DNA of 43,051 nt. It comes from Gammaproteobacteria bacterium. GTDB lineage: Bacteria; Pseudomonadota; Gammaproteobacteria; Steroidobacterales; Foliamicaceae. The position numbers were made by a program, and so were the translations under genes. The stretch is taken from the NCBI GenBank assembly GCA_028821145.1, contig JAPPHC010000061.1, positions 1-43,051 on the forward strand, in the 5' to 3' direction. Of this stretch, positions 196 through 26,737 are shown piece after piece (position 1 is the first letter of the stretch; each line of letters begins with the position of its first letter). The notes below the pieces were generated by a model. The model did no database searches and had not been told where the DNA came from. It was given only the letters and a program-made list of their open reading frames with translations.

Positions 196-270
196 GTCCC
201 CATCGTCTAGTGGTTAGGACACCGGCCTTTCACGCCGGCAACAGGGGTTCGAATCCCCTTGGGGACGCCA
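196..270 (+). tRNA. tRNA-Glu (anticodon TTC)
   Basis: This 75-base cloverleaf starts GTCCCC and ends in an encoded CCA. The anticodon stem CCGGC/GCCGG encloses CTTTCAC, giving anticodon TTC (UUC). The T arm is AGGGG-TTCGAAT-CCCCT. It follows tRNA-Ala(GGC), probably co-transcribed. The next protein gene must start downstream of position 270, which rules out the ATG at 259 that lies inside this tRNA. Confidence 0.97.
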
Positions 271-297
271 CTTTACACACGGACAATTGACTTGGTG

Positions 298-1083
298 ATG
301 GTTTCCGAGCTGCTGGATGCGTCCGAGCCGGCCCCGTACGAGGTGCACAGGCCCGGCGCGACGGCGCCCCAGCTGGTGGTTTGCGATCACGCCGCGCGGC
401 GAATCCCGCGGGCCCTTGACCATCTCGGGCTTTCGCCGGAACATCGCGCAAGCCACATCGCCCAGGACCTCGGGGCGGGCGAACTGGCGCTGGCATTGAG
501 CGAACGCCTGAACTCCACCGCCGTGCTCTGCAACTACTCGCGCCTGGTCGTGGACTGCAACCGGGCGCTTACGGACGCTTCCGCCTTTCTCGACCTGAGC
601 GACGGGGTCGAAGTGCCCGGCAACCGGGAGTTGAGCGAACAAGACAAGGAACTTCGGGCTGCAGCCATTTACCGGCCCTATCGCCGCGCAATCGACCGGG
701 AACTGGATCGCCTTTGCTCGATCGTGGAAGCGCCCGTGCTGATCGCGATACACAGCTTTACGCGGTTTCTTGACGGCGAGGACCGGCGCTGGGATTGCGG
801 CGTGCTGTGGGACCGGGACGCACGGATCGCCCGCCCGCTGCTCGACGGCCTGCGCGACGACGGAACGCTTCTGGTGGGCGACAACCAGCCGTATTCCGGG
901 CGGCATCCCGAAGACTTCACCGTTGACCATCACGCCGAGGACCGCAACTTTCCGTATGCGGCGATGGAGGTCCGCCAGGATCTGCTGGACACTCCCGCGA
1001 AGCTGGAGCGCATGGCGGACCGGATCCACGCGGCTCTCGAACCTGTCCTTTCCGATCCCCGACTGTATACGCTGCGCGGTTAG
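298..1083 (+). CDS. N-formylglutamate amidohydrolase family protein
   Basis: This 261-residue protein resembles the N-formylglutamate amidohydrolase (FGase) family, zinc hydrolases that release formate from N-formylglutamate in histidine breakdown; many members have other or unknown substrates. Visible family features are the N-terminal strand VVCDHAARRIP, the block YSRLVVDCNRALTD, AIHSFTRFLDG in the middle, and a C-terminal DHHAEDRNFPYAAMEVRQDLL segment. No signal peptide is seen, so it is cytosolic. The start at 298 is chosen because the in-frame ATG at 259 lies inside tRNA-Glu; a GTG at 295 is an alternative. No histidine-degradation genes are adjacent, so the true substrate is unknown. 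Confidence 0.8.
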   Translation: MVSELLDASEPAPYEVHRPGATAPQLVVCDHAARRIPRALDHLGLSPEHRASHIAQDLGAGELALALSERLNSTAVLCNYSRLVVDCNRALTDASAFLDLSDGVEVPGNRELSEQDKELRAAAIYRPYRRAIDRELDRLCSIVEAPVLIAIHSFTRFLDGEDRRWDCGVLWDRDARIARPLLDGLRDDGTLLVGDNQPYSGRHPEDFTVDHHAEDRNFPYAAMEVRQDLLDTPAKLERMADRIHAALEPVLSDPRLYTLRG

Positions 1084-1112
1084 TTGGCGTCCCGCCCGAA
1101 ACCGCGTTATGA
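1084..1112 (+). promoter_or_regulatory. Sigma-70-type promoter for csrA
   Basis: TTGGCG (1084-1089) and TATGAT (1107-1112) are separated by exactly 17 bases and sit immediately after the stop codon of the preceding gene. Transcription would begin near 1119, giving a leader of about 64 bases before csrA. The tRNA-Ser downstream could share this transcript. Confidence 0.65.
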
Positions 1113-1167
1113 TTTCCGTCCAGAATAATGAGGACGGGCAACAGCCGCGCGGTGCAAGCGCTCGTCC

Positions 1168-1182
1168 AGGGAGGCTGAGGGA
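1168..1182 (+). promoter_or_regulatory. Two ANGGA motifs over the csrA ribosome binding site (likely CsrA autoregulation)
   Basis: AGGGA occurs at 1168-1172 and again at 1178-1182. The first lies inside the Shine-Dalgarno AGGGAGG (1168-1174), 8 bases before the start codon; the second abuts the ATG. CsrA dimers recognise ANGGA in RNA and block ribosome entry, and csrA represses its own translation in Escherichia coli. The motifs are seen directly; self-binding is inference. Confidence 0.55.
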
Positions 1183-1380
1183 ATGCTGATTCTTACCCGC
1201 CGGTCCGGAGAGGCCGTAATCGTTGGCGATAACGTGCGCATTGCGGTGCTGGACATACGAGGCAACCAGGTCCGGCTGGGAGTTGAGGCGCCGCGCGAGG
1301 TGACCGTGCATCGCGAAGAGGTATACCAGCGGATTGTCGAAGAGCAAGGCGGTGTGACCGGAGAAGACGAGGAGTCCTAG
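1183..1380 (+). CDS. csrA: Carbon storage regulator CsrA
   Basis: This 65-residue RNA-binding protein begins [10 protein letters not shown] and contains [11 protein letters not shown] and [10 protein letters not shown], the core of the CsrA family. The RNA-contact residues Leu4 and Arg44 are present. CsrA works as a dimer that binds ANGGA motifs in mRNA leaders and controls translation of carbon metabolism, motility and biofilm genes. It has its own promoter and a strong Shine-Dalgarno (AGGGAGG). tRNA-Ser(GCU) lies 18 bases downstream, the same neighbour as in Escherichia coli (csrA-serV), which supports a gammaproteobacterial origin. The C-terminal tail is acidic, as is usual. Confidence 0.97.
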
Positions 1381-1398
1381 CGCGGACTCCGCACCAGC

Positions 1399-1489
1399 GG
1401 AGAGGTGGCTGAGCGGACGAAAGCGCTCCCCTGCTAAGGGAGTAAGGGTTGATAGCCCTTCGTGGGTTCGAATCCCACCCTCTCCGCCA
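1399..1489 (+). tRNA. tRNA-Ser (anticodon GCT)
   Basis: This is a 91-base class II tRNA with an encoded CCA. The acceptor GGAGAGG pairs perfectly with CCTCTCC. The anticodon stem CTCCC/GGGAG encloses CTGCTAA, giving anticodon GCT (GCU). The long variable arm AAGGGTTGATAGCCCTT is typical of serine tRNAs. It follows csrA, and the accessory genes begin 23 bases after its end. Confidence 0.97.
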
Positions 1490-1512
1490 CAATCCGGAAC
1501 GAGCGAGACCGC

Positions 1513-3687
1513 ATGAAGTCCACGCCAATAATCAGACTGACCCGCCGGGCTTTTGTCGCGGCCGGGGGATCGCTCGCGCTGGCCGTGTACCTGCCGCAAG
1601 GGCGGTCCAGCGAAGCGGAAGGATTTCGGCCCAGTGCCTGGATCGGGATTGATCCCGGCGGCGACGTCTCGTTTGTATGCGACCGCACGGACATGGGGCA
1701 GGGCAGCCCCTGGGCGCTGGCCCGCATCGTCGCCGAAGAGCTGGAGGCGCCCTGGGAGCGCGTATCCGTTGCGCCCATGCCCGACAACCCCGCCGGCTGG
1801 CCGCGATCCATGGGCACCGGCGGCAGCACGGCGGTAAGCGGTTCCTACGACCTGCTCCGCAAGGCGGCGGCCTCGGCCCGCGAGATGCTGCGGCTGGCCG
1901 CGGCGGTGGAGTGGGGCATCAGTCCGTCCGAATGCGTCTGCCGTGACGGCGTCGTGACCAATCGCGCCACGGGCGCCCGGCTGGGTTACGGCGCGCTGAC
2001 CGCATTCGCCGCGCAACTGGACCCGCCCCAGGACCCTCCTCTCAAGGATGTGTCCGAATACCGTCTGGTCGGCAGGTCGTTTCCGCGGCCGGACGTCCCA
2101 CCGAAGACGCTGGGCACCCAGCGCTATGCCAGCGACGTGCGCCTGCCCAGGCAGATGACCGCGCTGATCGATCGGTCGCCCTGGCCCGGCTCGGTGGGGC
2201 GGCGCGCCGTCTACGATGCGTCGGCGGCCCTGAATCTGCCGGGCGTGGCGGATGTCTTTGAAATTCCGGGTGACGAGCACCGGCCGCCGGGTGTGGTCGT
2301 GCTCGCCGACGATTTCTGGCAGGCGCACAAGGCGCGGACGGCGCTGGAAGTGAGGTGGGTTGCACCGGAAGGCGGCTCGGCGTCGGGAACGATCGATCCT
2401 GAAGCCGATTTTCGCCGCCGGTTGGTTACGGCCCTGTATGAACCGGCTCCCCTGGCGCGCAGCGAGGGCAATGTGCAGGAAGCGCTGCAAGGCCCCGGTG
2501 TGCGCCGGGTCACGGCACAGTACGAGGCTCCGTTTCTTCATCACGCCACGATGGAACCGATGAATTGCACTGCGGATGTCCAGGTGAATCGTTGCGAGGT
2601 TTGGGCGCCGACCCAGGCCCAGACCCGGGCCCAGCAAGTCGCGGCGAAGCTGACCGGCCTGCCCATTGAAGCCGTGCACATCTACACGCCCGCGCTGGGC
2701 GGAGGCTTCGGACGCCGCCTGGAAAACGATTACGTTGCCGAAGCCGTGCTTGCTTCCCAATACGCCGGCCGGCCCGTAAAGGTGATGTGGACGCGCGAGG
2801 ACGATATGCAGCATGGCTATTTCCGCCCCGCGGCGATCAGCCTGATGCACGGTGCGCTGGACGAAGCGGGAGAATTGACGGTCTGGCGACAGCGCGTCGC
2901 CTCCCCGTCCGTGCTCCGGCAGCTGCGGGGGATGGATATCGAAGTGGATACCGCGGCCCTGCACGGCGTCGCGGACTTGCCATACCGCGTGTCGAACCTC
3001 GAAGTCAGCCATGGCGAGGCGAGGTCGCCGGTCAACGTGGGCTTCTGGCGGTCCGTGGGCCATTCATTCAACTGTTTTTTCGTCGAGACCTTTGTCGACG
3101 AACTCGCCAACGCCGCCGGCCGCGACCCGTACGCTTTCAGGCTGTCCCTGCTGCCCGAGCAGTCGCGTATGTCGGCCGTGCTTGCCCTGGCGGCGAAGGA
3201 GGGTGGCTGGGGCAGGCCGCTCGGACCGCAGAGCGGCCTCGGCATTGCCTGTTCGGCAAGTTTCGGCTCCTATGTGGCGCAGGTGGCCCGCGTATCGGTG
3301 GTGCGCGGCGAGCTGCGCATCGAGCGCATTGACTGCGCGGTGGATTGCGGACTGGCGGTGGATCCCGCCACGCTCGAAGCGCAGGTCAGCGGAGGAATCC
3401 TCTATGGCCTTACCGCGGCCCTGCACGGCAGGATCCACTTCGACGGGAATGGCGTAAAGGAACGGAATTTCGACAGCTACAGGATGCTGCTCATGAACGA
3501 CACACCCGAAATCCGCGTGCATATCGTCAACAGCGGCGCCCCGATCGGGGGTATAGGCGAAGTGGGCGTGCCGCCTGCCGCACCGGCGGTGGGCAATGCG
3601 ATTTTCGCAGCGCTGGGCAAGCGCTTGCGCGCGCTGCCCTTTGAGGTTCCGGCGGCGCAGAACGCCCCGGTGGAGGAACAACTCTGA
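1513..3687 (+). CDS. Molybdopterin-binding subunit of a xanthine dehydrogenase-family oxidoreductase (IorB type)
   Basis: This 724-residue protein resembles the large subunit of isoquinoline 1-oxidoreductase-type enzymes, molybdenum hydroxylases that oxidise aldehydes or N-heterocycles. A twin-arginine signal (TRRAFVA, residues 10-16) predicts folded export to the periplasm. Cofactor-binding blocks include DMGQGSPWALARIVAEEL, GGGFGRRLENDY, FWRSVGHSFNCFFVE and GGIGEVGVPP; Glu683 in the last block matches the catalytic glutamate. The start at 1513 follows because the earlier in-frame ATG is inside tRNA-Ser. These enzymes normally need a 2Fe-2S subunit (IorA), and none is present here. It overlaps the next gene by one base (TGATG), suggesting coupling. 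The substrate cannot be told. Confidence 0.85.
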   Translation: MKSTPIIRLTRRAFVAAGGSLALAVYLPQGRSSEAEGFRPSAWIGIDPGGDVSFVCDRTDMGQGSPWALARIVAEELEAPWERVSVAPMPDNPAGWPRSMGTGGSTAVSGSYDLLRKAAASAREMLRLAAAVEWGISPSECVCRDGVVTNRATGARLGYGALTAFAAQLDPPQDPPLKDVSEYRLVGRSFPRPDVPPKTLGTQRYASDVRLPRQMTALIDRSPWPGSVGRRAVYDASAALNLPGVADVFEIPGDEHRPPGVVVLADDFWQAHKARTALEVRWVAPEGGSASGTIDPEADFRRRLVTALYEPAPLARSEGNVQEALQGPGVRRVTAQYEAPFLHHATMEPMNCTADVQVNRCEVWAPTQAQTRAQQVAAKLTGLPIEAVHIYTPALGGGFGRRLENDYVAEAVLASQYAGRPVKVMWTREDDMQHGYFRPAAISLMHGALDEAGELTVWRQRVASPSVLRQLRGMDIEVDTAALHGVADLPYRVSNLEVSHGEARSPVNVGFWRSVGHSFNCFFVETFVDELANAAGRDPYAFRLSLLPEQSRMSAVLALAAKEGGWGRPLGPQSGLGIACSASFGSYVAQVARVSVVRGELRIERIDCAVDCGLAVDPATLEAQVSGGILYGLTAALHGRIHFDGNGVKERNFDSYRMLLMNDTPEIRVHIVNSGAPIGGIGEVGVPPAAPAVGNAIFAALGKRLRALPFEVPAAQNAPVEEQL

Positions 3688-15114: not shown

Positions 15115-16128
15115 CTAGTCAAGCGTCACGCCGGCGCCGGTTTCCACCCGGCCGATTTCGTGAACCTCCTCGCCCGCCGCAGCCAGGTCTTCGCGCACCC
15201 CCGCCGCCTGTTCCGGCGCCACGGCAAGGACCAGGCCGATACCGCAGTTGAAGGTGCGCAGCATCTCGTCGCGTTCAACCGGCCCCTCGCGGCTCAGCCA
15301 GTCGAAGACCGCCGGCCAGGCCCAGGCGCTGGTGTCGATCCTGGCGGCAAGGCCGTCCGGAACGATGCGTTCGACGTTTTCCGGCAGGCCTCCGCCGGTG
15401 ATATGGGCAATCGCTTTCAACCGCCCCGATTGCGCCAGCGGCAACACGGACCGGATGTAGATCCGGGTGGGCTCGCACAGCGCGTCGATCAGGCTGCCGT
15501 CCAGGGCCCGCACACCGCCCGCTCTTTCCACGATTCGGCGCACCAGCGAGTAACCGTTGGAATGCGGTCCGGACGATGACAGGCCCAGCAGAACGTCGCC
15601 CTCCACGATTCCGCCGCCGTCCAGCAGCCGGTCCTTCTCGGCCACGCCCACGCAGAATCCAACGAGTTCCAGTCCGTCATCGACGTAGGTGTTGGGCAGC
15701 TCCGCGGTCTCGCCGCCCAGCAGCGCGGCGCCCGCTTCCCTGCAGCCGCGAACGATGCCCTTCAGCAACGGTTCCAGGCGGTCGGGATCCAGGCGGTTGG
15801 CCGCGCAGTAGTCGAGGAAAAACAGGGGCTCGGCCCCCATGGCCAGCAGATCGTTTACGCACATGGCCACCAGGTCCACCCCCGGCGCTTCCATGCGGCC
15901 CGCTTCGCCGCACAACCTGAGCTTGGTGCCGACACCGTCGGTGCCCGCCACCAGCACGGGCTCGCGATATTTTCCGCTGGGCACCTCGAACAGACCGCCG
16001 AAACCGCCAATACCGCCCAGCACGCCGGGGCGGTGCGTTTCCCGTGCCAGCGGTGCGATACGGCGGACGATTTCCGCGCCACGCTCAAGGTCCACGCCGG
16101 CGCCGCTGTAGGTGATCGGTTTGCTCAC
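15115..16128 (-). CDS. purM: Phosphoribosylformylglycinamidine cyclo-ligase (AIR synthetase)
   Basis: This 337-residue cytosolic enzyme closes the imidazole ring of AIR using ATP (purine step 5). Motifs are YSGAGVDLERG, GIGGFGGLFEV, LVAGTDGVGTKLRL (ATP site), MCVNDLLAMGAEPLFFLDY, LLGGETAELP, LSSSGPHSNGYSLVRR and HITGGGLPENVER. The GTG start at 16128 follows GAGGG with 6 bases spacing. It is the first gene of a leftward operon and is divergent from the DUF2066 gene, an arrangement seen in many gammaproteobacteria. Confidence 0.97.
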   Translation of the reverse strand: MSKPITYSGAGVDLERGAEIVRRIAPLARETHRPGVLGGIGGFGGLFEVPSGKYREPVLVAGTDGVGTKLRLCGEAGRMEAPGVDLVAMCVNDLLAMGAEPLFFLDYCAANRLDPDRLEPLLKGIVRGCREAGAALLGGETAELPNTYVDDGLELVGFCVGVAEKDRLLDGGGIVEGDVLLGLSSSGPHSNGYSLVRRIVERAGGVRALDGSLIDALCEPTRIYIRSVLPLAQSGRLKAIAHITGGGLPENVERIVPDGLAARIDTSAWAWPAVFDWLSREGPVERDEMLRTFNCGIGLVLAVAPEQAAGVREDLAAAGEEVHEIGRVETGAGVTLD

Positions 16129-16160
16129 TCAATCCCTCTCTTTGGGGAAGCCGCACATCC

Positions 16161-16166
16161 TATAAT
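16161..16166 (+). promoter_or_regulatory. Perfect -10 box before the DUF2066 gene
   Basis: TATAAT matches the consensus exactly, with only a weak -35 (TCTTTG, 16-base spacing). A start near 16173 would place the ATG at 16177 almost at the 5' end of the mRNA, so the transcript would be leaderless or nearly so. Confidence 0.5.
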
Positions 16167-16176
16167 GCCCGTTTCC

Positions 16177-17163
16177 ATGCTTTCGCGTATCGTGCCGTTG
16201 GCCCTGGCCCTGACGCTGTTGCCGGCGTCCGCCGCAACTTTAGCCCAAACGTCCTTCAGTTCAACCGCGCCGTTGCCCGACTCGAGTCAGGAGGGTAGGG
16301 ACGCGGCCCTGCAGGACGCGCTCGCGCGATTGCTGGTCAGGATTACCGGGCGCAGGGGCGCGGCCGAACTCGCCGACCGCTTCCCGCCCGCCACGAGCAT
16401 CGTGCGGCAGTTCCGCGTCATCAACGGGGGGCGTCTGGAGGCGCAGTTCGACGAGCCGCTGGTTCGTCGGGTCCTCGAGGAGGCCGGCGAGGGCATCTGG
16501 GAAGGCGGCAGGACCGGCCTTTACCTGTGGCTGGTGGTGAACGACGGAGAAAGGTGGCTGTTCCGGCCGGTGGGTTTCGCCGACACGCCGCCGCAAGCCA
16601 TGAACGTCCGCAACGTCTTCAGCGGCGCGCTGAGTCAGACCTTCGAGGAAGTTTCGGCGCTGCGCGGCATCGAAATCGACTTCGCGCCCGAACCGGAGCG
16701 GCAGGCGGCCGGGCAATGCGCCGAGAAGCTTTGGATCGGTGATTTTGCCTGCCTGCCGGACGACGACGATCGATTGATGGTCCTGGGAAGGGTGGCGGTT
16801 CCCGGAGCACTGGAAGATATCGAGTGGAGATTGCGCGAGGACGGATTCTGGCGAACGGTATGGACAAGCGACGCTGCCGAAGCGGTCCACCGCGTGACGG
16901 ACATGCTGGCCGAGCGTTTCATGGCCAGCCAGGGACCCGTGCGCTCGTACGTCCTGCAGGTGGCACCTGTGCCGAACCTTGAGGCGTACGCAAGCCTCAA
17001 GGAGGGCCTGAACTCCCTGCAGGCGGTGCGGGAGTGGCAGGTGCAGGGGGCCGCGGGAGACGAGCTGAGGCTGCGAATTACCACCCGGACAGCCGAATCG
17101 CCGCTGCGCGAGGCGCTGGCTTCCCTGGGGATTACATTTGAACTGACCAGGACGGGCACATGA
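16177..17163 (+). CDS. DUF2066 family exported protein
   Basis: This protein of about 328 residues begins with a signal peptide (MLSRIVPLALALTLLPASAA) and matches the DUF2066 family, of unknown function, found beside purM and hda in gammaproteobacteria. Visible traits are RDAALQDALARLLVRITGRRG near the N-terminus and GLYLWLVVNDGERWLFRP in the middle. Two cysteines (QCAEKLWIGDFAC) could form a disulfide. The ATG at 16165 (4 residues longer) overlaps the TATAAT box, so 16177 is preferred, though it lacks a Shine-Dalgarno. It overlaps the next gene by 4 bases (ATGA). Confidence 0.8.
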   Translation: MLSRIVPLALALTLLPASAATLAQTSFSSTAPLPDSSQEGRDAALQDALARLLVRITGRRGAAELADRFPPATSIVRQFRVINGGRLEAQFDEPLVRRVLEEAGEGIWEGGRTGLYLWLVVNDGERWLFRPVGFADTPPQAMNVRNVFSGALSQTFEEVSALRGIEIDFAPEPERQAAGQCAEKLWIGDFACLPDDDDRLMVLGRVAVPGALEDIEWRLREDGFWRTVWTSDAAEAVHRVTDMLAERFMASQGPVRSYVLQVAPVPNLEAYASLKEGLNSLQAVREWQVQGAAGDELRLRITTRTAESPLREALASLGITFELTRTGT

Positions 17164-18449
17164 GCCTCAAGCGCCACGTTCCGAACCTGATCTGCGTGTT
17201 CCGGCTCTTGCTCGCGCCGGTCATCGTGACGGCCCTTGCCCGCGGCGCCTACGGTCAGGCGCTGCTGCTGCTGGCCGTCGCCGCCGTTTCCGACTGGCTG
17301 GATGGTTTCCTGGCCAAGCGCTGGGGGCTGGACAGTTATATCGGTTCGATCCTGGATCCGATGGCGGACAAGATTCTGATTGCCAGCGTTTACGTCACCC
17401 TGGCCGTGCTCTCGCATGTTCCGGTCTGGCTGGCGGTCGTGGTTATCGTGCGCGACCTTGTGATCACGGTCGGCTGGCAAACCTTCCGCGTAATGAGGGG
17501 CGAGCTGCGCCCGCGGCCCTCCCGGGTAAGCCGGCTGAACACCTTCGTGCAGATCATTCTGGGGGTGGCCGTGATCGCCACCCAGGCGTTCGGCGGGTTT
17601 ATTCCGGCGGACTGGATTCAGGTCGGCGGGGCGCTGGCGCTGTTGCTGGCCGTGTTGAGCGGCGTGGATTACGTACTGAGCGGTTCGCGGCTCGCGGCGC
17701 AGCGCAAGCGGCAGGGCATGGGGTCCGTCGAGAGCGACAGGCATCAGTTGCAGCTCGACGTGAGCCGCGAAGACCCCTGCGTCTTCGAGAATTTCTACAA
17801 CGGCGCCAACGCGGACGTCGTGTCGGCCTTGCGAAACCTGATCGATCGGGAAAGCGCCGCTCCCTTCTGGTTATGGGGCGCTCCCGCCACCGGCAAGACC
17901 CACCTGCTGCTGGCTACCGTCAGGGCGGCAACGGACGCGGGATTGACCTCTGCCTACCTGCCCGCGCATGCCGGTTTCAAGCCGGATGCGCTGGATGCCC
18001 TGCGCAAGATCGAACTGCTGTGCATCGACGACGCCGAGAAGATCGCCGGCGCACCCCAGGTCGAGGAGGCGATGGGCGGTCTTTGCCGGGAGCTCGAACG
18101 GCGCGGCTCCCGGCTGGTGCTGGCAGCGGACAGCACGCCGGCCGGGGCGGGTTTTGAGCGTGACGACATGCGCACCCGACTCGCTTCGGGTCAGATCTGG
18201 AAGCTGCAGCCGCTGACGGACGAGGAACGGCTGGAGGCCGTGCAGCTCAGGGTCCGCAGCCGCGGCATCAAGCTGCCGGAGGCGACCGCGCGGTTCCTGA
18301 TGCGGCGCGTGCGCCGCAATCCCAGCGACGTGTTCATTCTGGTGGACCAGCTCGCGGCTCTGGCGGCCAGCCGCAGCAAGCAACTGACCGTGCCCTTCGT
18401 GCGGCTGGCGCTGCGCGAGGGCATGCTGGAGGCCGGCGGCGGCCGTTAG
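17160..18449 (+). CDS. hda: CDP-alcohol phosphatidyltransferase fused in frame to the DnaA regulator Hda
   Basis: This single 429-residue frame holds two proteins that are normally separate neighbours. Residues 1-185 form a membrane CDP-alcohol phosphatidyltransferase with the motif D45-x2-D48-G49-x2-A52 ... G62-x3-D66-x3-D70 (the usual AR is AK), a family that includes PgsA. Residues 187-429 match Hda, the AAA+ protein that with the DNA-loaded clamp stimulates DnaA-ATP hydrolysis: a clamp-binding-like QLQLDV (196-201), NFYNGAN, Walker A GAPATGKT (240-247), Walker B LLCIDDAEK (near 288) and SGQIWKLQPLTDEERLEAV. No stop or frameshift separates them. An internal ATG at 17718 (residue 187), with only weak ribosome-binding signal, might yield free Hda. 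It overlaps the DUF2066 gene by 4 bases. Confidence 0.88.
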   Translation: MSLKRHVPNLICVFRLLLAPVIVTALARGAYGQALLLLAVAAVSDWLDGFLAKRWGLDSYIGSILDPMADKILIASVYVTLAVLSHVPVWLAVVVIVRDLVITVGWQTFRVMRGELRPRPSRVSRLNTFVQIILGVAVIATQAFGGFIPADWIQVGGALALLLAVLSGVDYVLSGSRLAAQRKRQGMGSVESDRHQLQLDVSREDPCVFENFYNGANADVVSALRNLIDRESAAPFWLWGAPATGKTHLLLATVRAATDAGLTSAYLPAHAGFKPDALDALRKIELLCIDDAEKIAGAPQVEEAMGGLCRELERRGSRLVLAADSTPAGAGFERDDMRTRLASGQIWKLQPLTDEERLEAVQLRVRSRGIKLPEATARFLMRRVRRNPSDVFILVDQLAALAASRSKQLTVPFVRLALREGMLEAGGGR

Positions 18450-18464
18450 CCGTTTGACGCGGCG

Positions 18465-21104
18465 CTAGCCGTCCTCAAGCTCTTTTCTCAGGGCGGCCAG
18501 CAGTTTCTCCCGGCGGCTGGCCGACAATGGCTTGCGCCCTGCATCGACGAGGTGGAACACGTCCTCGGCGCGCTCGCCGATGGTCGCGATCCTGGCGGTC
18601 CGAACGGCGATTTCCTGCCGGGTCAGGATGCCCCCCACCAGCCCCAGGAGGCCCGGCCGGTCCGTGGTGACCAGTTCCATTACGGTGTGGCGCCCGCGGG
18701 GATCGGCGCGGAAACTCACCTCTACGCCTACGTCGAAGGCCCTCAGGCGCCTCGGCAGCTTGCGGCTTGCAGGCCGTGACGGCAGGTCGCCCCTGGCCAG
18801 CGCTTCACGCAGGGAAGCGCAGATGACGTCGAGCCGGTCGGTGTCGTGCAGCGGAGCGCCATCGCGCTGCACGACCAGGTATTGCGCAAGACTGCGCCGG
18901 CCCCCGGAGGGCAGGATGCGCGCATCCAGGATGTTCAGTCCCTTCGCGTCCAGCACCGAGCAGGTAATGAAGAATCGGCGCACCGCGGACGGACCGTGGA
19001 CCAGTATCGCGGTACTTCCGTCGGCCGCATGGGCGCGCGAGGCGACCAGGAAGCCCCCGGAAGGGCCTTCGTGCAGCGCCGTCGTGTGCCAGACGATCTC
19101 GTCGTCGCGGAAAAGCCAGAAATAGTCCTCGGCAAAACCGTTCCAGATGGCGCGAATCCGGCTTTCCTCGAGTCCGCGGCCGCGCAGCTCGGCCAACGCG
19201 GCATGTTCGCGCTCCTTCAGCAGTTCCCCGGTCCCGCGCGGGTGCTCTATGTTCATTCGCAGCGCCCGCTCGGTCTGGCGGTAGAGGTCTTCGAAGGCGC
19301 GGGCCTTCCAGGCCGTCCACAGGCCCGGATTGGTTCCCCGCACGTCGGCCACCGTCAGCAGATAGAGATGATCCAGGTGGACCTGGTCGCCCACCAGGCG
19401 GGCGAAATCGCGAATGACCGCCGGGTCGTAGACGTCCTTTTTCTGGGCCGTCATCGACAGGTCCAGGTGGTGCCGCACCAGCCACGCCGCCAGGGCCGAC
19501 TCGCGCGGACTCAGCCCGTGGTTCGAGCAGAAATGTTCCGCGTCGCCGGAGCCCAGTTCCGAGTGGTCGCCGCCGCGGCCCTTGGCGATATCGTGAAACA
19601 GCCCCGCGATATAGAGCACGGCGGGGTTTTCGACTCGTTCCATGATCTCCCGGAGCCGCGAATCCGTCTTCCGCCCTTCGGCCAGGCCGAAACGGCGGAT
19701 ATTGCGGACCACGCGCAGGATGTGCACATCGACCGTGTAGCTGTGAAAGAGGTCGTACTGCATCCGCCCCGTGATCAGCCCGAACTGGGGAATGTAGGCG
19801 CCCAGTACCCCGTAGCGGTTCATCGCCTCAAGCTGGCTGGGCGCGTCGGCGGGGGCGGACAGGATCTGCATGAAAGTGCGGCGATTCTTCGGGTCGTTCC
19901 GGAACTCGCAGTCGATCCTGGGCGCGGCTTCCATCAGCCGCTCGACCAGGGGGGCGCTGAAGCCGCGGATTTCGGCGTGCTTCTGCCGCAGCAGGAACGG
20001 TTCCAGCACTGCCCGCGGCGAAACCTCCAACAGCTTGGGCCGCTTCGAGTCCAGGTAGCCGTTGCGCGTCAGGAACCGGGCGTTGATGCGCCGCTCCGCG
20101 GTCCGGGTGCGGCCGATGACGTCGCCAAGCCGCTGGAGAACGACTTCATTGAACAGTGAAACTCTGCGGGTGGTCCGGTAGTAGCGCTGCATGAACTGCT
20201 CTACCGCGCGATTGCCGGTCTGGTCGTGATAGCCGAAGTTGCCGGCAAGCTGTTTCTGGTGCTCGAACAGCAGCTGGTCCTCCATGCGCCCGCTGTTCAG
20301 GTGCAGGGCGAAGCGCACCTGCGAGAGGAAATCGCGCGCCCGCCGCAGCCCGACCAGTTGCTCGGCGGAGATCAGCCCCCGTTCGACCAGGGTTTCCAGC
20401 GCCGTCGATCCGAACCGGCGCTTGAGAATCCATTGCACCGTGTGCAGGTCGCGCAGTCCGCCCGGTCCGTTCTTGACGTCCGGTTCGAGATTGGAAGCCG
20501 TATCGCCGTATTCGGCGTTGCGCTGCTCCTGCTCCCTGACCTTGGCCCGGTAGAACTGCGTCGAAGACCAGACGCCGCGCGCGTTGATCGCCTTGCCGAG
20601 CTGCCCGAAGAGCCTGTCCGAGCCCGTCAGCAGGCGCGCTTCCAGCAGCGAAGTCATGATCGTGACGTCGGCGCGTGCCTGGTCGCGCGATTCGGCCACG
20701 GTGCGGGTGCCGTGACCGGGCTTGAGCCCCACGTCCCAGAGGAACGCCAGGAACGCGCCGACTTCGTTCCTGGCGCTGCGCGAGTAACCCTGCGGCATCA
20801 GGACCAGCACGTCCACGTCCGACGCGGGATACATTTCCTCGCGGCCGTAGCCCCCCACCGCCAGCAGGGCGGCCCCGCTCAGCGCCGGGCCGGCGTGCAT
20901 GCGCCACACCTCGCAAAGCAGTTCGTCGAGTTGCCCGGCGCGCCGCTTCAGCAGTTCGGGCGTGCTCTCCCGGCTGCGCAGGAACTCGTCGCGAACATGC
21001 TCCTCGTGCTCGCGGATTCGGGCGCGGCAGGCGTCAAGCCGCCGTTCCCGCGAATCCGCCGACGGCGGCGCCGAAGCGGGCGCAAGGGTCTGCTCAGGGT
21101 TCAA
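18465..21104 (-). CDS. glnD: [Protein-PII] uridylyltransferase / uridylyl-removing enzyme
   Basis: This 879-residue bifunctional sensor adds UMP to PII proteins under nitrogen limitation and removes it when glutamine is high. Domains in order: nucleotidyltransferase with GGYGREE (84-90) and DVD (96-98); the GlnD-specific linker with NLEPDVKNGPGGLRDLHT; an HD hydrolase domain with LFHDIAKGRGGDHSELG (near 502); and two C-terminal ACT domains that sense glutamine, the last with VTTDRPGLLGLVGGIL. The TTG start at 21104 is supported by GGGGAAGG just upstream and overlaps the map stop. It is next to map, as in Escherichia coli. Confidence 0.97.
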   Translation of the reverse strand: MNPEQTLAPASAPPSADSRERRLDACRARIREHEEHVRDEFLRSRESTPELLKRRAGQLDELLCEVWRMHAGPALSGAALLAVGGYGREEMYPASDVDVLVLMPQGYSRSARNEVGAFLAFLWDVGLKPGHGTRTVAESRDQARADVTIMTSLLEARLLTGSDRLFGQLGKAINARGVWSSTQFYRAKVREQEQRNAEYGDTASNLEPDVKNGPGGLRDLHTVQWILKRRFGSTALETLVERGLISAEQLVGLRRARDFLSQVRFALHLNSGRMEDQLLFEHQKQLAGNFGYHDQTGNRAVEQFMQRYYRTTRRVSLFNEVVLQRLGDVIGRTRTAERRINARFLTRNGYLDSKRPKLLEVSPRAVLEPFLLRQKHAEIRGFSAPLVERLMEAAPRIDCEFRNDPKNRRTFMQILSAPADAPSQLEAMNRYGVLGAYIPQFGLITGRMQYDLFHSYTVDVHILRVVRNIRRFGLAEGRKTDSRLREIMERVENPAVLYIAGLFHDIAKGRGGDHSELGSGDAEHFCSNHGLSPRESALAAWLVRHHLDLSMTAQKKDVYDPAVIRDFARLVGDQVHLDHLYLLTVADVRGTNPGLWTAWKARAFEDLYRQTERALRMNIEHPRGTGELLKEREHAALAELRGRGLEESRIRAIWNGFAEDYFWLFRDDEIVWHTTALHEGPSGGFLVASRAHAADGSTAILVHGPSAVRRFFITCSVLDAKGLNILDARILPSGGRRSLAQYLVVQRDGAPLHDTDRLDVICASLREALARGDLPSRPASRKLPRRLRAFDVGVEVSFRADPRGRHTVMELVTTDRPGLLGLVGGILTRQEIAVRTARIATIGERAEDVFHLVDAGRKPLSASRREKLLAALRKELEDG

Positions 21105-25229: not shown

Positions 25230-25931
25230 TTGAGCGACGCACTACAGCATCTGGCGATCATCATGGACGGCAACGGCCGGTGGGCCGCGCGGCGCGGGCG
25301 GCCGCGATCGGAGGGGCACCGGGCGGGAGTGGACGCAGCCCGCAACATTGTCGAGGAGTGCGCGCGCCGCGGTATTTCCGTGCTGACGCTTTTCGGGCTG
25401 AGCAGCGAGAACTGGCGGCGGCCGCAGGATGAGGTTAGCGAACTCATGAAGCTCCTGACCGACAGCCTGCGGCGGCACATGGGGCTGTTGAACGAAAACG
25501 GCATCCGGCTGCGCTGCATCGGCAACCGCAGCCGGTTTTCGGGGGGCGTGCGGGCCGCGCTGGAAAAGGCCGAGGACAGCACGCGCCGCAATGACCGGAT
25601 GCAACTGATCGTCGCGCTCTCCTATGGCGGACAGCAGGAAATCGTTGGCGTGGCGCAGGAGCTGGCCCGGGATGCGGCGCGCGGAGCGCTGGGTCCGGAC
25701 GAAATCGACCTGGAAGCCTTTACGCTCCGAACCGGCCTGGCGGACCTGCCGCCGCCGGACTTCATGATTCGAAGCGGGGGTGAGCGCAGGATCAGCAATT
25801 TCCTGCTCTGGCACCTGGCCTATACGGAACTGTATTTCAGCGAGGTGCTGTGGCCCGATTTCGGGTCCGTGGAGTTGCAGGCCGCGCTGGACGACTATGC
25901 GGCGCGGCAGCGCCGATTCGGTACGGCATGA
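25230..25931 (+). CDS. uppS: Undecaprenyl diphosphate synthase (cis-prenyltransferase)
   Basis: This 233-residue enzyme adds eight isopentenyl units to farnesyl diphosphate to make the lipid carrier for peptidoglycan and LPS O-chains. Motifs are IIMDGNGRWA with catalytic Asp13, GHRAGVDAARNIVEEC, LTLFGLSSENWRRP, and RSGGERRISNFLLWHLAYTELYF near the C-terminus. The TTG start gives the natural N-terminus; its Shine-Dalgarno is weak. The stop overlaps the cdsA start (ATGA), so the two are probably coupled. Confidence 0.95.
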   Translation: MSDALQHLAIIMDGNGRWAARRGRPRSEGHRAGVDAARNIVEECARRGISVLTLFGLSSENWRRPQDEVSELMKLLTDSLRRHMGLLNENGIRLRCIGNRSRFSGGVRAALEKAEDSTRRNDRMQLIVALSYGGQQEIVGVAQELARDAARGALGPDEIDLEAFTLRTGLADLPPPDFMIRSGGERRISNFLLWHLAYTELYFSEVLWPDFGSVELQAALDDYAARQRRFGTA

Positions 25932-26737
25932 GCCGCTTTTTCCCTCCAAGGATATTGACGGCTGCGGTACTGGTGGCCGCGATCGTGGTCGCCAGCGTTT
26001 CACCGCTCAGCCTCAAACTGACGATGATCGGGCTGGTCCTGTTGCTGTGCTGGCGCGAGTGGCTGCGCATGGCGGGCCTTGCCGGAACCGTGGCGCGATC
26101 GTCGTGGATCCTCCTATTTGCCCTGGCGCTGGCGGTTCCGGTTGCGATGCCGCCGCCCGATCCGGTTTCCTACGCCGTCATGGCCCTGGGCGTGGCCTGG
26201 TGGGCATTGGCCATCCTGTTGTTGCGGGGTTCGTACGGTTCGATCGGCAATTCGGCCGTCCTGGGCTGCGGGCTGCTGGGAATGGCGCCCGCGTGGCTGG
26301 CGGTGCTCGCCATTCTCGATACCGGCCGGGGTGACTTGCTCATTCTGTTGCTGGTCCTGGTCGGCGCGGCCGACACGGGGGCGTTCGTGTTCGGAAAGCT
26401 GCTGGGGCGGCGTCAGCTTGCGCCGGTCCTGAGCGGCGGCAAGACCGTCGAGGGCGCCGTGGGGGGGCTGGTCATGGCAACCCTTGCCGGCTTTGCCGCA
26501 TCCTTTTACCTGCAGCAACCGGCACTTTTCTGGACGCTTGGAGGGCTGGCTGTGGGAGCTTTGGCGATGCTGGGCGATTTGACTGTAAGCATGTTCAAAC
26601 GGCGTGCCGGCCTGAAGGACAGCGGACGCATGCTGCCCGGCCACGGGGGGATGCTGGACCGCATGGACAGCAGCATCGCCACCGCGCCGTTGCTGGGATT
26701 GCTGGTGTTTCAGCCTGTTGGCTGGCTGCCGCTTTAG
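25928..26737 (+). CDS. cdsA: Phosphatidate cytidylyltransferase (CDP-diglyceride synthase)
   Basis: This 269-residue inner-membrane enzyme makes CDP-diacylglycerol from phosphatidate and CTP, the precursor of all membrane phospholipids. It has many hydrophobic segments. The signature SMFKRRAGLKDSGRMLPGHG plus GMLDRMDS lies at the C-terminus, with GGKTVEGAVGG before it. The ATG at 25928 overlaps the uppS stop. In most gammaproteobacteria dxr follows here; instead rseP begins 79 bases downstream. CDP-diacylglycerol is also the substrate of the transferase half of the 17160-18449 fusion. Confidence 0.95.
   Translation: MSRFFPPRILTAAVLVAAIVVASVSPLSLKLTMIGLVLLLCWREWLRMAGLAGTVARSSWILLFALALAVPVAMPPPDPVSYAVMALGVAWWALAILLLRGSYGSIGNSAVLGCGLLGMAPAWLAVLAILDTGRGDLLILLLVLVGAADTGAFVFGKLLGRRQLAPVLSGGKTVEGAVGGLVMATLAGFAASFYLQQPALFWTLGGLAVGALAMLGDLTVSMFKRRAGLKDSGRMLPGHGGMLDRMDSSIATAPLLGLLVFQPVGWLPL

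Follow-up and report, generated by a model that had tools for sequence, protein, structure and literature searches.

A probable genus-wide fusion of a cardiolipin-synthase-like transferase to the replication regulator Hda in Gammaproteobacteria

Introduction

Hda, an inactivator of DnaA, carries a motif that binds the beta clamp of the replication machinery. According to the available part of PMC3836487, this motif is required for function in Escherichia coli Hda and in Caulobacter HdaA, and the same source describes the role of arginine 153 (R153) of Hda. Among phospholipid enzymes, the cardiolipin synthase CLS_cap occurs in diverse proteobacteria, where, as stated in the accessible portion of Tian et al. 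(2012, PMC3378450), it is mostly annotated as phosphatidylglycerophosphate (PGP) synthase. Here we describe a single gene that joins a CDP-alcohol phosphatidyltransferase to Hda. It lies on a 43,051 bp stretch of DNA, hereafter the window (contig JAPPHC010000061.1 of assembly GCA_028821145.1), from an uncultured gammaproteobacterium of the Foliamicaceae (Steroidobacterales). Both halves belong to known families and adjacency of their genes is common; the single chain appears new as far as our literature search reached. No description of a transferase and Hda in one chain was found in full texts, titles and the openings of abstracts, with subscription papers and protein-architecture databases outside the search.

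Results

A complete transferase and a complete Hda in one open frame

The gene and the elements discussed below are listed here. Residue invariance refers to an alignment of 28 rows (A4), and pLDDT is the predicted local distance difference test score of the AlphaFold model.

17160..18449, + strand: fused gene, CDP-alcohol phosphatidyltransferase plus Hda, 429 amino acids, ATG to TAG in a single open frame
17160..17717, + strand: transferase half, residues 1-186, six predicted helices (PF01066, model helices, hydropathy, loop charge)
17292..17369, + strand: catalytic motif D45xxDGxxAK...G62xxxD66xxxD70; D45, D48, G49, G62, D66 and D70 invariant in A4
17451..17456, + strand: R98-D99, where PgsA has R-E (sequence comparison)
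17529..17543, + strand: S124-R-L-N127-T128, where PgsA has [GA]-K-x-K-[TS] (sequence comparison)
17715..17744, + strand: linker, residues 186-195; sequence varies freely, length constant in 8 of 8 orthologues, pLDDT below 50
17745..17762, + strand: beta-clamp-binding motif Q196-L-Q-L-D-V, now internal; Q196 and L199 invariant in A4
17877..17900, + strand: Walker A motif of the Hda AAA+ domain, GAPATGKT (sequence, A4)
18015..18032, + strand: Walker B region of the Hda domain, LLCIDD (alignment to 5x06); D290 invariant in A4
18177..18179, + strand: R340, in the SRL/TRL stretch, candidate Box VII arginine (alignment to 5x06); invariant in A4
18219..18410, + strand: Hda lid domain, residues 354-417 (Pfam PF22688)

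The initial annotation had proposed that one frame holds both a complete CDP-alcohol phosphatidyltransferase and a complete Hda. This was borne out by Pfam, by the NCBIfam Hda model TIGR03420, by the AlphaFold model and by a stop-free frame in eight of the nine genomes of the genus. Pfam matched CDP-OH_P_transf at residues 6-150 (2.1e-28), Bac_DnaA at 208-344 (5.5e-08) and Hda_lid at 354-417 (1.4e-13). TIGR03420 aligned to residues 196-418 (model positions 1-225 of 226), scoring 194.2 bits with the whole protein against a cut-off of 194.8; in the genome search the score was 195.6 bits, a borderline pass. Five of the nine genus genomes exceed this cut-off.

The Hda half has the Walker motifs of an AAA+ domain, an arginine at the Box VII position and the lid. 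We take R340 for the counterpart of E. coli Hda Box VII R153, an assignment made from the alignment without counting out residue number 153. The clamp motif is of the QL[SP]LPL type and reads QLQLDV in seven of the eight orthologues and QLPLEL in the most divergent one. At its last two positions it departs from the E. coli motif, and several stand-alone Hda proteins from relatives do the same. The motif is not at a free N-terminus, as 195 residues precede it in the same frame. Separate Hda proteins of relatives mostly start one to a few residues ahead of the same motif, and this places the fusion junction just upstream of it.

The AlphaFold model of the whole chain (mean pLDDT 82.4) has two confident domains; with a predicted template modelling score (pTM) of 0.51, their placement relative to each other is not fixed. 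Residues 186-203, which join them, have pLDDT values under 50. Hda crystal structures gave the best structural matches to the model: the Hda half matched 5x06 with a TM-score on target of 0.87, and the transferase half matched the PgsA structure 7drk with 0.75. Model helices in the transferase half span residues 3-27, 31-55, 60-83, 89-113, 122-144 and 150-186. Hydropathy and charge of the loops revealed positive charge at the N-terminus, in the active-site loop, in loop 108-124 and in the C-terminal tail. Both ends of this half are thus predicted to be cytosolic, and six helices with a positive-inside pattern would place the join of the two halves in the cytosol. About ten residues (186-195) lie between the last transferase helix and the clamp motif (196-201), and not about 20 as first estimated.

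Conservation within the genus

The survey took in 97 genomes, nine from the genus and 88 others from its order. A stop-free match over both domains was detected in eight genomes, all from this genus, at 77-100% identity. Named records exist for four of the eight, including a 3.1 Mb single-contig chromosome (OX639965.1), and in all eight the two halves and the linker are co-linear. No congeneric genome has separate genes at this place: eight of the nine carry the stop-free fusion and one lacks the region, so the comparison with close relatives that the initial annotation had called for came out in its favor. Its suggestion of a recent loss of a stop codon does not hold, because the fusion is common to the genus down to 77% protein identity. 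In each of the eight genomes the fusion is the sole match in the Hda range. All other TIGR03420 matches score under 83 bits, and the best of these, frames of about 465 amino acids, we take for DnaA.

In the ninth genome (G008) nothing scored in the Hda range, and no GlnD match reached the range seen in the other eight; a DNA search with the upstream purM-DUF2066 stretch, run without a positive control, was also empty. The whole region seems to be absent from this assembly, and G008 therefore neither supports nor contradicts the fusion. We rejected it as a counter-example on the same grounds.

Over six pairs, the ratio of nonsynonymous to synonymous substitution rates was 0.10-0.23 for the transferase and 0.05-0.14 for Hda (the region borders in this calculation precede those of the motif numbering by one codon). 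Both halves are under strong purifying selection. The amino acids of the roughly ten-residue linker change freely, and its length is identical in all eight orthologues.

Fused product or free Hda

Two potential internal starts bear on the form in which Hda is made.

17718..17720, + strand: internal ATG, M187; in 2 of 8 orthologues
17748..17750, + strand: TTG, codon 197; in 7 of 8 orthologues, and a start there loses Q196 of the clamp motif

A weak ribosome-binding sequence at 17718 had been read as a sign that the fused form is used. The fused form is indeed favored, for a different reason: the ATG itself is not conserved. It is found only in the window gene and its closest relative, with AGGG just 1 nt upstream. 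Upstream of the clamp motif, other candidate starts occur here and there, none of them common to all eight orthologues; in three (L007, L008 and L009), codons 171-195 include no ATG, GTG or TTG. The TTG at codon 197 is preceded by AGG 6 nt upstream in six of its seven carriers, and a GTG occurs at codon 201 in seven of the eight. Starts at these codons would remove Q196 or most of the clamp motif. In the available text of PMC3836487, Caulobacter HdaA without its first ten residues did not replace the wild type. Given that starts ahead of the motif are not conserved and that the motif is needed, the conserved product would be the fused chain and not a free Hda with its clamp motif, and the fusion is apparently used as one chain. 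A domain ahead of the motif should be tolerable, since YFP-HdaA served as a functional tagged protein in Caulobacter (PMC3836487, same part of the text).

Separate genes in relatives

The initial annotation was right that a transferase gene followed by hda is a common arrangement of separate genes, as the two are neighbors in relatives. Because the relatives examined have them as separate neighbors, parsimony points to an origin by fusion. We tabulated 76 distinct transferase/hda pairs, with loci chosen by similarity to the fusion and Hda starts set by a simple rule. Spacing is -4 to +39 nt in 69 of them and about 1.05-1.25 kb in five, and two are not true pairs. The two genes often share a frame, interrupted by a single stop. 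With such tight spacing and often a shared frame, a fusion is only a short step away. The five widely spaced pairs (L040, L041, L060, L079 and L100) leave room for one extra gene.

Searches for further fusions covered 396 genomes of the order (nine of them the genus), 369 of the class and 398 of the phylum; the samples overlap, and at most four candidates were scored per genome. No further stop-free two-domain fusion was detected in them at E<=1e-45, and a more diverged fusion could fall below this bar. None was found among the other 76 named contigs (best 80 of 104). A single record in a plasmid collection reached a query coverage of 80% or more, and the two genes there are not fused. A Legionella adelaidensis plasmid record (L160, NZ_LR134433.1 111826-121054) holds a transferase/hda pair together with ftsH, rlmE and yhbY, genes that we would have expected on a chromosome.

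The transferase half

The motif of residues 45-70 is the catalytic motif of CDP-alcohol phosphatidyltransferases. An identification of this half as PgsA could not be upheld. With the TIGR00560 (pgsA) model, residues 1-196 score 96.1 bits, below the cut-off of 109.1, whereas the PgsA encoded elsewhere in the window genome scores 135. The R-E and [GA]KxK[TS] motifs are present in that protein, in E. coli PgsA and in the PgsA of 7drj; their use as a PgsA diagnostic derives from the sequences compared here and is not a published key. By this signature all nine genus genomes have a PgsA-type gene (the TIGR00560 score comes from the copy of the window genome only). Hda-linked transferases instead have R-D and [SG][KR]xN[TS]. 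Among 83 distinct rows, 81 have R-D and 80 the N[TS] motif, and on the basis of these motifs and the score below the cut-off we rejected a PgsA identity. The replacement of AR by AK in the catalytic motif, which had been singled out at first, is real; it is, however, the family norm, present in 68 of the 83 Hda-linked transferases, and was dropped as a peculiarity of the fusion.

The motifs lie nearer to a cardiolipin-synthase branch. R-D and SKxNT occur in six of seven alphaproteobacterial homologues and also in a plant cardiolipin synthase. In the tree, the plant sequence, on a long branch, and four of the five alphaproteobacterial rows join the Hda-linked family, apart from PgsA (94/86). 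This grouping is in line with the CLS_cap tree in the accessible portion of Tian et al. (PMC3378450). The sequence evidence thus suggests an Hda-linked family with cardiolipin-synthase-like motifs, distinct from PgsA.

TIGR04265, the model for phospholipase-D (PLD)-type cardiolipin synthase, matched none of the nine genus genomes; at E<=0.001 it matched 65 of the other 88 genomes of the order and 10 of 14 control genomes, four of these above its cut-off. PLDc_2 matches occur in four of the nine genus genomes, none with a TIGR04265 match. A simple pattern search found no paired HKD-like motifs in the four PLDc_2 loci, with two further matches outside this check. We consider it somewhat likely that the transferase uses CDP-diacylglycerol and phosphatidylglycerol to make cardiolipin, and that it is the principal or sole cardiolipin synthase in the genus.

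A PssA-like gene is likewise present in the genus, as is a third CDP-alcohol phosphatidyltransferase, which has FDIAxD instead of LDPxAD (L002, L142-L145). The copy of the latter in the window genome has one NCBIfam match at E<=1e-10, to pgsA at 58.6 bits, which is below the cut-off.

Neighboring genes

Two genes flank the fusion in the window.

16033..17163, + strand: DUF2066 gene, upstream; its true start is probably later in the open reading frame, and its stop overlaps the fusion ATG by 4 nt
18465..21104, - strand: glnD (Pfam domains GlnD_UR_UTase, HD, ACT), downstream, convergent

In the single-contig genome G004, glnD and the fusion are not adjacent but some 22 kb apart (positions 1862136 and 1885918; L010, L156), so the neighborhood was rearranged there while the fusion stayed. 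Rfam found nothing in positions 16000-19000 of the window. A cdsA-like cytidylyltransferase gene (PF01148) at 25850-26734, about 7 kb downstream of the fusion, is clustered with rseP-, bamA- and dnaE-like genes; the encoded enzyme would supply the transferase half with its donor substrate, CDP-diacylglycerol. An open frame of 949 codons at 214-3060 (- strand) has no Pfam match at E<=1e-10 and may be a shadow frame in high-GC DNA.

Discussion

At the level of sequence, Hda is physically tied here to an enzyme of phospholipid synthesis. We regard a genuine, genus-wide fusion, in which a membrane-anchored Hda is tied to a probable cardiolipin synthase, as the likely explanation. The chain would be made whole, and its six membrane helices would place the C-terminus of the transferase in the cytosol, from which a flexible linker of 10-18 residues would hang Hda from the membrane. 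Through its internal clamp motif, Hda could then dock, close to the membrane, on beta clamps loaded on DNA. By analogy with ordinary Hda, the docked domain would trigger hydrolysis of DnaA-ATP, the regulatory inactivation of DnaA (RIDA). The result would be a replication brake at the membrane, made one-to-one with a cardiolipin-synthase-like enzyme. A further step would be a single-molecule device, in which the substrate state or local cardiolipin output of the transferase alters how readily Hda reaches DnaA and clamps at the membrane; one protein would then make the lipid able to reload DnaA with ATP and also carry the discharging brake. We consider such coupling improbable.

An assembly or binning artefact was considered because the window genome is a metagenome-assembled genome, 66% complete and in 83 contigs. 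Seven further genomes have the same co-linear fusion, one of them as a single 3.1 Mb contig; we rejected an artefact on these orthologues, and its chance is negligible. A neutral fusion deserves much more weight and is a serious contender, though short of the favored explanation: loss of a stop would have joined two close genes whose halves work as before, with anchoring of no regulatory meaning. The tight and often in-frame spacing of separate pairs fits this, as does a linker sequence free to vary. Retention across the genus, constant linker length and the fusion being the only Hda copy speak on the other side, as does the removal of free cytosolic Hda, which should matter for a protein that has to reach the replisome; none of these is proof of selection. 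Several results weigh against the explanation that we favor. In a neutral simulation the linker stayed stop-free in all eight orthologues with P of 0.06-0.60 for 16 codons and 0.44-0.88 for 9 codons, depending on composition. With a chance this high, linker openness alone is weak evidence, and we rejected it as proof of selection. Proteolysis may release Hda at the linker, and according to the authors of PMC3836487, in the part available, YFP may have hidden the motif in short Caulobacter constructs. The fusion could be one of two products, with free Hda arising from internal initiation or from cleavage of the low-confidence linker. The ATG at 17718 and the TTG at codon 197, each with an AGG-containing stretch upstream, are what internal initiation has for it. 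This explanation is unlikely, in view of the lack of a shared start ahead of the motif, the three orthologues with no such start in codons 171-195, and the loss of Q196 from a codon-197 start, considering the non-replacing Caulobacter truncation.

The remaining counterpoints concern the lipid. In an approximately unbiased (AU) test, a tree in which the Hda-linked transferases stay with PgsA was not rejected (p 0.345), so the test is not decisive. The curated cardiolipin synthase model NF053678 (ClsA), whose intended reach is uncertain, is matched far below its cut-off, at 81 of 240 bits. The TIGR04265 cut-off is passed by only 14 of the 97 genomes, and at this stricter level the comparison of 0 of 9 with 14 of 88 says little. 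Many members of the order hold both a PLD-type match and an Hda-linked transferase, which argues that the latter is not simply a replacement of the PLD-type synthase. The transferase half may make another lipid, either PGP as PgsA does or one with another head group. In favor of this, TIGR00560 is the best NCBIfam lipid model of the fused half (96 bits); on the other side, the fused half lacks the R-E and [GA]KxK[TS] motifs and every genus genome has a PgsA-type gene of its own. As so few genomes pass the TIGR04265 cut-off, we lowered the expectation of cardiolipin slightly, to the leaning given above, and moved another lipid from unlikely to a minority possibility, a little below that of a neutral fusion.

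This conserved natural fusion physically links a probable cardiolipin synthase to the one Hda detected in the genome, and it makes a clean object for testing. Provided that the cell produces the whole chain, Hda is able to function while anchored to the membrane. In many Gammaproteobacteria the transferase and hda genes are adjacent, an arrangement that the fusion brings to notice, and, should the lipid-coupling device be real, replication would be tied to membrane lipid synthesis within one protein.

Compared with known systems, the Hda half resembles Hda of 5x06 and 3bos in its AAA+ domain with lid, clamp motif and Box VII arginine, at 30-35% identity in structural alignments. Ordinary Hda has its clamp motif at the N-terminus, as seen in relatives and in the available part of PMC3836487, whereas in the fusion the motif is internal and follows a six-helix membrane enzyme. 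The transferase half shares the fold of PgsA (7drj, 7drk; TM-score on target 0.71-0.75) and its catalytic aspartates, but differs in the diagnostic residues, falls below the PgsA cut-off and occurs beside a separate PgsA-type gene in the genus. With the CAP-type, eukaryote-like cardiolipin synthase CLS_cap it shares the CDP-alcohol phosphatidyltransferase family, the catalytic motif and the RD and SKxNT residues; it differs in being joined to Hda, its activity is predicted from sequence, and the tree that would make it a member is not decisive. Finally, plasmid 24 of Legionella adelaidensis has the same two families in the same order with a 4-nt overlap, as two genes separated by a stop, whereas in the genus described here they form one chain.

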